Of a DNA stretch of 64,000 bases, positions 12,852 to 15,899 are shown one piece after another. Source of the DNA: an uncultured Alphaproteobacteria bacterium (GTDB lineage: Bacteria > Pseudomonadota > Alphaproteobacteria > Rhodobacterales > Rhodobacteraceae); the NCBI GenBank assembly GCA_913031285.1, contig CAJWEI010000008.1:1-64000 (forward strand), written 5' to 3'. Positions within the stretch are counted from its first letter, which is position 1; the number at the start of each line of letters is the position of its first letter. The notes below the pieces were generated by a model, which saw only the letters and a list, made by a program, of their open reading frames with translations, was not told the DNA's origin and did no database searches. Position numbers and translations under genes: made by a program.

Positions 12852-13535
12852 CTAATTGCCTTGCCACTTGTGTTCGCGTTTTTGGATGGTTTTAATCCGA
12901 TCCTCTGTTGCAGGATGGCTTAGTAGCCATGCCGGCATACTTCCCGTCTGACCCGTCAGAGCCTCAAGCTTTTCAAATAATGTGATCTGTGGTTTGGTGC
13001 CGATACCGCTTTTAACTAGGAGCGCAGAGGCATATTCGTCGGCTTCATATTCATCTGAGCGTGATAGTTTAGCCATAAGGAGATTTGCAAATATATTGGC
13101 CACCCAGTTTCCTATACCCGGCAGAAAACGACCCAAAATCATCCCAATCGCTGCACGGATTGCATTTTGGCTGGAAAAATCAATCATCCTGCGGCGAGAG
13201 TGCCCCAAAGCGATATGGCCCAATTCATGGGCTATGACGGCGGCGATCTCTTCTGCGCAAACGTCGCCAGACTTATATTTGTTATAAAAGCCCCTCGTGA
13301 TAAAAATTCGACCATCAGGCGAGGCAAGCCCGTTCACGGGATCAACTTCGTACAAATGGACTTTGACCCGATCAACACCTAGCGCTTTGGCCATATTGTT
13401 TAAAACTGGCTGCAGACTGGGGTCCAACAATTCTGCGGATTGCGCATCAAGAGCCTTGCGCAAACGCATGGTTGAGAACCAGTACATACCAAGACCGTAC
13501 AACAGAGCCAGTAAGATTGGAGAAAAACGTATCAT
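12852..13535 (-). CDS. M48-family membrane-associated metalloprotease
   Basis: A 227-residue zinc endopeptidase. Residues about 4-22 form one hydrophobic segment (membrane anchor or uncleaved signal), followed by the catalytic motif HELGHIALGH (HExxH, about residue 105) and, about 60 residues on, DEYEADEYA, which supplies the glutamate zinc ligand. This matches short M48 (HtpX/Oma1-like) proteases, probably acting on the periplasmic side. It lies 44 bases after the VWA gene on the same strand and may be the last member of that unit. The ribosome site is poor. The substrate is unknown. Confidence 0.87.
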   Translation of the reverse strand: MIRFSPILLALLYGLGMYWFSTMRLRKALDAQSAELLDPSLQPVLNNMAKALGVDRVKVHLYEVDPVNGLASPDGRIFITRGFYNKYKSGDVCAEEIAAVIAHELGHIALGHSRRRMIDFSSQNAIRAAIGMILGRFLPGIGNWVANIFANLLMAKLSRSDEYEADEYASALLVKSGIGTKPQITLFEKLEALTGQTGSMPAWLLSHPATEDRIKTIQKREHKWQGN

Positions 13536-13579: not shown

Positions 13580-14764
13580 CTAACGCAAAAGTTCTTTCAT
13601 ACCCCGTTCAAGGCCCGAAAGCGTCATCGGCACCATTCGCTGATCAAAGATTTTGCGGATCATATCTATTGATTGTGTATATGTCCAATGGCGTTCAGGA
13701 ATAGGGTTAATCCATAAATGAGAGGGCCACTGCTCCTTGATGCGTTCAAGCCATACTTGCCCAGACTCTTGGTTCCAATGTTCGTTGGCCCCGCCTGAAT
13801 AGGCTATTTCATAGGGTGACATGCTAGCATCGCCAACAAAAATACATTTGTAATCAGACCCGTAAGTTCGCAGGATTTCGTGAGTAGGTGTTTGATCATC
13901 CCAGCGACGGGCATTGTCACGCCATACACCTTCGTATATGCAGTTGTGAAAATAAAAATACTCAAGATGTTTGAATTCACTGCGGGCCGCGGAAAATAAT
14001 TCTTGAACAATTTTCACATAAGGGTCCATCGAACCACCTACGTCAAGAAAAATTAGGACTTTGACAGCGTTGCGACGTTCCGGACGTGTTTTTACATCGA
14101 GGTAGCCATTTTCAGCTGTTGAGCGGATTGTACCCGATATATCAAGTTCGTCATCCGCTCCATCACGGGCCCACCTGCGCAGGCGTTTGAGCGCTACTTT
14201 TATGTTGCGTGTGCCAAGTTCGACTTGATCATCAAGGTTTTTAAATTCGCGTTTGTCCCAGACTTTGACTGCACGTTGATGCCTGCTTCTATCCTGGCCG
14301 ATACGTACGCCTTCAGGATTATAGCCATATGCGCCAAACGGAGAGGTTCCTGCCGTGCCAATCCATTTGCTGCCGCCTTGGTGACGTTTTTCCTGCTCTT
14401 TGACACGCTCTTTGAGAGTTTCCATCAGTTTGTCAAAACCACCCAGTGCCTCAATCTCAGCCTTCTCTTCATCGCTAAGGTGCTTTTCTGCCATTCTATT
14501 CAGCCATTCGGCTGGAATATCGACGGCATTCAAAACCTGTTCGTTAGAAATTTCTTCAATGCCTTTAAAGGTTGCAGCAAATGCGCGGTCAAATTTATCG
14601 AGATTTCGTTCGTCTTTGACCATTGTGGTACGGGCCAAAAAATAGAAAGCTTCTACGTCATAAGTGGTAAGACCAACCTTCATACCCTCTAAAAAGCCCA
14701 AGAATTCGCGCAATGAAACTGGAATTCCAACATATCTTAGATTGTCAAAGAAAGGCAGAAACAT
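13580..14764 (-). CDS. CoxE-like VWA-domain protein
   Basis: A 394-residue cytoplasmic protein of the von Willebrand A/CoxE type. The C-terminal half (from about residue 235) holds the MIDAS-like loop VLIFLDVGGSMDPYVK, in which the usual DxSxS reads DxGxS. Such proteins typically pair with MoxR AAA+ ATPases, and a MoxR gene lies upstream on the same strand (15900-16739). The middle is rich in basic residues (about 130-200). Its ATG is 3 bases after the stop of the 54-residue membrane protein, so the two are likely co-translated. The target of the pair is not deducible here. Confidence 0.88.
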   Translation of the reverse strand: MFLPFFDNLRYVGIPVSLREFLGFLEGMKVGLTTYDVEAFYFLARTTMVKDERNLDKFDRAFAATFKGIEEISNEQVLNAVDIPAEWLNRMAEKHLSDEEKAEIEALGGFDKLMETLKERVKEQEKRHQGGSKWIGTAGTSPFGAYGYNPEGVRIGQDRSRHQRAVKVWDKREFKNLDDQVELGTRNIKVALKRLRRWARDGADDELDISGTIRSTAENGYLDVKTRPERRNAVKVLIFLDVGGSMDPYVKIVQELFSAARSEFKHLEYFYFHNCIYEGVWRDNARRWDDQTPTHEILRTYGSDYKCIFVGDASMSPYEIAYSGGANEHWNQESGQVWLERIKEQWPSHLWINPIPERHWTYTQSIDMIRKIFDQRMVPMTLSGLERGMKELLR

Positions 14765-14767
14765 GGA

Positions 14768-14932
14768 TCAGATGACCGTCCTATCAGCGATAATTGTGAG
14801 CACTAACCCTATCAGAGCAAACAAAATGCCATAAGCGGCAGAATACTGAGCTATGTCGGCCGCCCTTCCATTTTTCTTTTTTGCGGCCCGTGCTCCGATC
14901 AGGGCGCCAATAAAACCGCATATTAAATACAT
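14768..14932 (-). CDS. 54-residue membrane protein, coupled to the VWA gene
   Basis: Small gene read directly from the sequence. The product has a hydrophobic segment (about 1-17, rich in Gly, Ala and Ile), a short basic loop (RAAKKKNGR), and a second hydrophobic segment (about 28-48), ending DRTVI. The start ATG at 14932 is preceded by GAGCGGAAC and the stop is 3 bases before the VWA start, both favouring a real, translationally coupled gene. I recall similar short proteins in Rhodobacteraceae, often carrying a dubious 'apolipoprotein acyltransferase' label; the size rules that function out. Probably two membrane helices; function unknown. Confidence 0.75.
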   Translation of the reverse strand: MYLICGFIGALIGARAAKKKNGRAADIAQYSAAYGILFALIGLVLTIIADRTVI

Positions 14933-14940
14933 GTTCCGCT

Positions 14941-15899
14941 CTTTTTTACTAGTCTGTCAAATTTAGGTTGCTGATCTTACGCAATTATCAACTAATCCCA
15001 TTATCTGATGCCAATCCGTAACCTGCAAACGCTGTCATGTCCAGACGGACCTTATGACATTCCGATGCTTGCCCATTTATATTAAGTCCTTTTGCCAATA
15101 GAAAAATAAATGCGACAAACCGGGATGCATTTTTTATTCAAAAGCGGCCTGAATATAAGCCGCAAGTACGATTAAATTACTCCCACCGTCATTTTTTTAA
15201 TTTGATTACCGGCCAATTACACTTCAAAAAAGGCACTTTGAAGGGTACTGCGGACTGAGTGGATAAAAATCGTCGCTGCTTTTTAAAACATTTTATTTGC
15301 CATATGTAGAACAGTTATGGGATCATCTGTGTCAGATTATTCTGGTTGATCTTTAAGTAGCGATCAATGCGGGCAGCTTCCGGACTATTTCAACGTATTT
15401 TCCGCAAGCGGTTTTTTCTAAATTTGCATATTTGAGTCTGATATTTTTAGAATTCAGTAGTTACGCGAATAGCCTTTTGATTTCATGTAGTGTGGCGCAA
15501 TTACACCGTAAGTGCATTGAGTTTTGAAAGTTTGTTGAGGGAAATAGGTTCAATCTGCCAGTTTTTTGTAATATTTTGTGTTTCTTGTCATTAACTCTCT
15601 GGGAGAGGAGGGCATTCATCGACCAAGTCCTAAGCAAGATTGCAATTTGTATCTGTGGAGAATTTCAATCATTATCAAAGTCAAATGGTCATTTGCAAGA
15701 CAAATTGACGATATAATTAAATGCTTTCCCCAGAGCTTTGTTTAACCTTATTCGAAATTTACTCACTCTAATTCTTCATTCTAATGCAAAAAGTCATGTG
15801 ATCTTTTACACCTAATTATACGAGGGACGTGGCAAAATCATCAACTATGCGAAAAGTACAGTGAGGTATTTCCCACTATACGTTCATTTTTTCTGCGTT
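14941..15899. other. unexplained gap within the moxR-VWA run
   Basis: About 960 bases without a supportable gene. Reading both strands gives only frames broken by stops and no recognisable domain. One small inverted repeat (GCGGC...GCCGC, 15144-15163) could be a terminator on the minus strand (followed there by TTTT). The stretch is AT-richer than its surroundings, and could hold a decayed gene, a promoter for the small-protein/VWA pair, or a small RNA. Confidence 0.4.

Follow-up and report, generated by a model that had tools for sequence, protein, structure and literature searches.

A conserved 54-residue predicted membrane hairpin of the Rhodobacteraceae is separable from the MoxR-VWA genes beside it and travels with lnt on plasmids

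The window analysed here, a 64,000-nucleotide stretch of Rhodobacteraceae DNA, carries a 54-codon frame immediately upstream of a gene for a VWA protein, which raises two questions: does so short a frame encode a protein and, if it does, does this protein belong with the MoxR-type ATPase and the VWA protein encoded around it? An earlier note on this DNA had argued that the gene is real, and had suggested that the product could be the membrane anchor or target of the ATPase-VWA pair. The frame, hereafter the small gene (Table 1), begins with ATG and its 54-residue product is MYLICGFIGALIGARAAKKKNGRAADIAQYSAAYGILFALIGLVLTIIADRTVI. Three nucleotides separate its stop from the ATG that opens the VWA ORF (13580-14764, minus strand), exactly the spacing that the note had given. 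Of the translation signals claimed alongside, the ATG is in place, and the ribosome-site part of the claim is modest, as the sequence in front of the ATG (AAAAAAGAGCGGAAC-ATG) has a purine-rich stretch that resembles a ribosome site only weakly.

Table 1 Genes and gene remnants at the small-gene locus of the window
Feature	Position	Strand	Basis
Small gene, 54-aa two-helix membrane protein; the subject of this study	14768..14932	minus	ORF list, homologues, codon selection, structure model
Gene for a VWA_CoxE-type protein of 394 aa, starting 3 nt after the small gene ends	13580..14764	minus	PF05762, E 8e-8
Gene for an M48 metallopeptidase of 227 aa, following the VWA gene	12852..13535	minus	PF01435, E 5e-25
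MoxR-type AAA ATPase gene, 279 aa	15900..16739	minus	PF00004/PF07728
DUF2927 lipoprotein gene remnant, 3′ end	14961..15170	minus	tblastn, three in-frame stops

A search with the single protein sequence (E ≤ 0.01) matched the small gene in 264 of 295 genomes of the Rhodobacteraceae family (236 of 259 among those at least 90% complete), and a profile search added 13 of the 31 genomes missed by the single sequence, bringing the overall count to 277 of 295. In a second draw of genomes, made at the order level and consisting of members of this family alone, 61 of 61 carried the gene; at the genus level it was found in six of seven genomes, the seventh being 55% complete. Between the small gene of the window and its closest relative, 21.0 synonymous and 1.0 non-synonymous differences are spread over 41.3 and 120.7 sites, respectively, which corresponds to a dN/dS of 0.010, and two other close pairs gave 0.012 and 0.036. 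An intact frame of 54–59 codons is present in all 80 named loci, which are the best 80 among the 446 relatives found, and in all 19 loci taken from genomes that lack the VWA gene. Six residues, G13, A17, G22, D26, Q29, and Y30, are invariant across 40 divergent homologues; some of these vary in the VWA-less genomes, where, for example, W or H replaces Y30. The TAG seen ‘inside’ the frame in two genomes (G302 and G326) is the small gene’s own stop, and its reading as decay was rejected.

The frame is short and the region is full of chance frames of about 50 codons, as would be expected if it were a fortuitous ORF or a leader that merely couples translation to the VWA gene. Purifying selection at the amino-acid level, the invariant residues, and the retention of the frame where the VWA gene is missing (see below) leave this reading almost no probability, and we regard it as ruled out. 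It is thus close to certain that the small gene is a real protein gene under strong purifying selection, as the earlier note had held. It is equally close to certain that the protein, 54–59 residues long, is restricted to the Rhodobacteraceae/Roseobacteraceae/Paracoccaceae: no convincing small gene was present among 285 genomes of the class from outside the family, and four class-level matches (E 8e-4 to 7e-3), all situated within long frames, were read as chance.

The prediction that the product is a two-helix membrane protein is borne out by modeling. AlphaFold2, run with 40 sequences, places helices at residues 2–19 and 24–53 (mean pLDDT 95.6, pTM 0.72), and the predicted fold is that of a membrane hairpin in which two hydrophobic helices are joined by a short basic loop. 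A GxxxG motif lies in helix 1, the basic loop is followed by a conserved D-x-x-Q-Y, and helix 2 contains a conserved glycine. In the best 80 of 446 relatives, lysines and arginines average 3.9 in residues 17–29, 0 in the first three residues, and 1 in the last six. By the positive-inside rule, basic loops of membrane proteins face the cytoplasm, and the loop of the hairpin is therefore probably cytoplasmic.

The protein appears to be new to the libraries that we searched. The small protein of the window matched no Pfam or NCBIfam family, and 34 homologues produced scattered matches only (at most three of the 34 per family, best E 0.0017), among which the LNT_N and CN_hydrolase domains were absent. 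The single match of a PDB profile search (E 3.9) was a soluble reductase and not a relative. A Foldseek search with the hairpin model listed 35 matches, none at E ≤ 0.001; the low-scoring hairpins among them, some from complex I, were not taken as evidence. No publication on the small protein was found in the open-licence PMC literature, a search of which also gave no support for the name ‘apolipoprotein acyltransferase’ for such proteins; plasmid records label the plasmid-borne copies ‘hypothetical protein’. Term searches covered the R. sphaeroides Tn-seq paper (PMC5513736) and the CenKR paper (PMC9275681); a CenR table names a ‘Putative MoxR family protein’, RSP_1024, whose link to the moxR gene discussed here is only a candidate one. 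By kind, the small protein is probably a small inner-membrane accessory protein, one without a relative in these libraries.

On the chromosome, the small gene resides in a recurrent gene order. Among the matches listed, 121 genomes had coordinates for both the small gene and the VWA gene, and in 118 of these the former immediately precedes the latter in the same orientation, no more than 500 nt away; the exceptions are G007 (747 nt apart), G134 (1886 nt), and G083, in which the two occupy separate contigs, the small gene sitting beside a GNAT gene on one (L258, L259). Within the best 80 of 446 relatives, VWA is found in 79 loci (the contig of the 80th ends), MoxR in 77, and M48 in 70. The spacing between the small gene and VWA in the 79 loci is 2–10 nt in 68, a 1-base overlap in four, and 16–295 nt in seven, so that the tight coupling noticed in the window (no more than 10 nt apart, or overlapping by 1 nt) recurs in 72 of 79. 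The conserved homologues upstream of VWA that the note had asked for in related genomes are present, and the substitution pattern given above is one of purifying selection.

The earlier description of a MoxR/VWA/M48 unit named genes that are indeed there, but it is incomplete, because two further genes intervene in most relatives: in the same 80 loci, a DUF2927 match, broken in some, lies between MoxR and the small gene in 76, and a GNAT gene (located with two queries) in 49. The junction between DUF2927 and the small gene is often a 4-nt overlap or a 3-nt gap, and each of the three DUF2927 sequences inspected shows a lipobox-like leader. We conclude that the chromosomal order is, close to certainly, moxR-gnat-DUF2927 lipoprotein-small-VWA-(..)-M48, with the small gene separable from every one of its neighbors. 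In the window itself, the best NCBIfam match of the MoxR protein is MadB, far under the cut-off of that family, and the long interval that separates the small gene from MoxR (14936-15899) has lost the GNAT gene and retains only a decaying DUF2927 remnant. This remnant aligns with residues 385–448 of the intact gene of a related locus, L131 (37% identity, tblastn E 4e-9; E 4e-10 with the L136 gene as the query), and the DUF2927 gene is also broken in L031, L032, L130, and L132. The small gene of the window has remained under constraint although its DUF2927 neighbor is dead.

If the small protein were part of the MoxR-VWA system, the small gene and the pair should occur and vanish together. Outside the family, the VWA gene is present in 117 of 285 genomes of the class (121 of 289 minus four family members), the same 285 in which no convincing small gene was detected. 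In the 66 of these 117 loci that we read, VWA has MoxR upstream at a distance of 200 nt or less in 45 cases and at a larger distance in eight; in 13, no MoxR was found within the stretch read. A hydrophobic short frame occupies the slot of the small gene in two of the 66 (L060 and L214). The one in L060 (about 1314-1478), directly upstream of VWA, is a different 54-residue frame that does not align with the family, and was rejected as a relative.

The converse arrangement occurs inside the family. The VWA gene is absent from 27 of 295 family genomes, six of which retain MoxR (in two of the six, G155 and G170, the locus reaches a contig end) and 21 of which are without both; in VWA-bearing controls, MoxR was found in 27 of 27, twice as a partial match. 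Instead of being lost together with the pair, the small gene is kept in 17 of these 21 genomes and is missing from G122, G150, G195, and G273, two of which are less than 80% complete. In G248 and G059 it stands amid genes of the original locus (DksA-, xthA- or FMO-like, as judged by eye), in genomes that gave no match to MoxR, VWA or, at E ≤ 1e-30, M48. The pair without the small gene outside the family and the small gene without the pair inside it show that the two are separable in both directions.

In the 21 genomes in which MoxR and VWA are jointly absent (e.g., G120, G065, and G094), the DUF2927, small, and M48 genes often stay, which suggests that MoxR-VWA is one functional unit and the remaining genes another. 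An M48 tree requires five changes to account for the MoxR-VWA losses (4–5 in the bootstrap), of which supported branches force just one, and we therefore claim no number of independent losses.

These observations bear on the proposal that the hairpin is a membrane anchor, or a substrate, that recruits the MoxR-VWA complex to the inner membrane where the complex is present. The small gene is encoded beside the pair, with the adjacency and close spacing given above, and RavA-ViaA, another such pair, works at the inner membrane according to one report (PMC9489729). The same report, however, describes RavA and ViaA themselves as binding lipids, MoxR and VWA stand close together in most of the loci read outside the family, where a hydrophobic short frame fills the slot in two of 66 and the one in L060 does not align, and the small gene outlives the pair in most of the genomes that lack it. 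The suggestion of the earlier note that the protein is the anchor or target of MoxR-VWA is thus unsupported, and we consider anchoring improbable, although it may be an additional role in genomes with that pair.

The M48 metallopeptidase, often the neighbor that is left once MoxR-VWA are lost, is another potential partner, which the small protein might serve as a regulator, adaptor or substrate. Among the 17 genomes that retain the small gene without MoxR and VWA, 11 have an M48 gene behind it on the same strand, at a distance of up to about 420 nt, and M48 was detected in 21 of the 27 VWA-less genomes versus 26 of 27 controls. This adjacency would, however, arise trivially, because the deletion of VWA from a small-VWA-M48 arrangement leaves the outer two genes side by side. 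Furthermore, the small gene is present in four genomes (G059, G248, G170, and G013) with no M48 match at E ≤ 1e-30, and no M48 gene is listed near the plasmid copies described below. An M48 partnership therefore has little likelihood in our estimation, although it may be an additional role in genomes with M48.

The second genomic context of the small gene emerged from extra copies. The single-sequence search returned two or three matches in 20 family genomes, and we surveyed these and G302 (21 genomes) with the profile. Of the 27 copy loci read (L111, L250, L288-L312), four are ordinary chromosomal loci and 23, from 19 genomes, are non-canonical. In 21 of these 23, the small gene immediately follows, in the same orientation, an lnt gene, which encodes apolipoprotein N-acyltransferase; no chromosomal small gene was found beside lnt in the loci read. 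The two extra copies without lnt are L293 and L312, the latter a fragment beside a ZIP gene. The identity of Lnt was confirmed by PF20154 and PF00795 in L111 and L250, and that of LspA by PF01252 in L111. The usual order is ZIP transporter-lspA-lnt-small, with ZIP and lspA both present in 18 of 23 extra-copy loci. The genome of the window has one copy of the small gene only.

The extra copy is found on 114 plasmid records, 76 of them typed as conjugative, which belong to Pseudosulfitobacter (63), Sulfitobacter (13), Roseovarius (7), Dinoroseobacter (6), and others; a query of the chromosomal type matched no plasmid at E ≤ 0.01. Annotated lspA-lnt genes precede the small gene on Dinoroseobacter, Sulfitobacter, and Roseovarius plasmids, where the overlaps are 1–10 nt. 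On pDSHI03 of Dinoroseobacter shibae, the last base of lnt is the first base of the small frame, at which the PLSDB table, incomplete by its own account, shows no gene; in Sulfitobacter mediterraneus and Roseovarius indicus, the frame is annotated as a ‘hypothetical protein’ and shares 10 and 1 nt, respectively, with lnt. D. shibae carries the ZIP-lspA-lnt-small cassette on two plasmids. Genes for SCO, PCu(A)C, DUF411, an M23 peptidase, and oxidase assembly also accompany the cassette (L111, L250, L288-L312; plasmids L313-L315), and, judged from these gene names, the plasmid surroundings are a copper/envelope cassette. In a tree built on 55 columns the extra copies cluster; four changes are needed, of which supported branches force only one, and the link to lnt could thus stem from one or a few recruitments.

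Both contexts share an envelope/lipoprotein theme, because a lipoprotein gene lies upstream of the small gene on the chromosome and the last two enzymes of lipoprotein maturation are encoded upstream of it on plasmids. We therefore read the small protein as a putative accessory of an inner-membrane envelope or lipoprotein machine, and Lnt or a lipoprotein-maturation protein appears to us its likeliest partner. We propose, with a probability of roughly 0.3, that the hairpin packs on, and adjusts, a bigger protein of the inner membrane that acts in lipoprotein maturation, with Lnt as the first candidate. In this model, the hairpin would sit in the inner membrane with its loop in the cytoplasm, and its glycine face would pack against the larger membrane protein of envelope or lipoprotein biogenesis, most plausibly Lnt or a component of the maturation step, whose stability or activity would be adjusted as a result. 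In the chromosomal operon, the hairpin would serve the lipoprotein encoded upstream and the envelope proteins made there, and coupling to the neighboring genes would set its dose. A point against Lnt as the partner is that in the lineage of the window the upstream lipoprotein gene is dead and the small gene persists. Moreover, as the genome of the window has a single copy and the chromosomal copy is not by lnt, the partner of the plasmid copies need not be shared by the chromosomal one.

A more far-reaching version of the proposal, which we regard as rather unlikely, is that the small protein is a dedicated and hitherto unrecognised cofactor of lipoprotein maturation in the Rhodobacteraceae that binds Lnt or acts at the hand-over from LspA to Lnt; conjugative metal-resistance plasmids would carry it beside lspA-lnt to meet a need of the plasmid-borne enzyme, and the chromosomal copy would attend to the host enzyme.

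The most serious rival to a role with Lnt is that the small protein belongs, as a supernumerary subunit, to a universal complex of the inner membrane whose genes lie elsewhere, such as the respiratory chain, the ATP synthase or the translocon. This would explain why the gene is retained in nearly all family genomes whatever its neighbors, and the plasmid cassettes do include SCO and CtaG-type oxidase assembly genes. Several membrane complexes of the Rhodobacteraceae family have solved structures, but no PDB chain fits the profile (best E 3.9), and the plasmid link is directly to lspA-lnt. We deem such a subunit possible but doubtful, and retain a partner in lipoprotein maturation as the working model.

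Present in 277 of 295 genomes from a major marine family and absent from the libraries searched, the small gene marks an annotation gap that can be closed now, and its two-way separation from MoxR-VWA guards against its classification as part of a chaperone. Should the link to lnt prove functional, a universal envelope pathway that is regarded as complete would gain a further protein component, and the presence of the small gene with lspA and lnt in mobile metal cassettes would be explained. The small protein is thus a promising unstudied envelope protein.

Among known systems, AcrZ, MgtS, and CydX are small single-helix accessory proteins of the inner membrane. The small protein resembles them in being a short helical protein that would bind a larger membrane protein and differs from them in having two helices; no sequence similarity is claimed. 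Its usual neighbors, an AAA ATPase and a VWA_CoxE protein that are often adjacent outside the family as well, are of the kind described for the MoxR-VWA systems NorQ-NorD, RavA-ViaA, and CoxD-CoxE (PMC9976466, PMC13036017, PMC9489729, PMC3471820). Unlike the parts of those systems, the small protein is no obligate component, as it and the pair each occur alone. Its extra copies follow and overlap lnt genes, although the protein, at about 54 residues and without an Lnt domain, is unlike the Lnt enzyme itself, and its chromosomal copy is not seen by lnt. Finally, although the organisms and protein classes differ, the two-component lipoprotein acyltransferase of Staphylococcus aureus (PMC7387801) is a precedent for lipoprotein acylation requiring a second protein.
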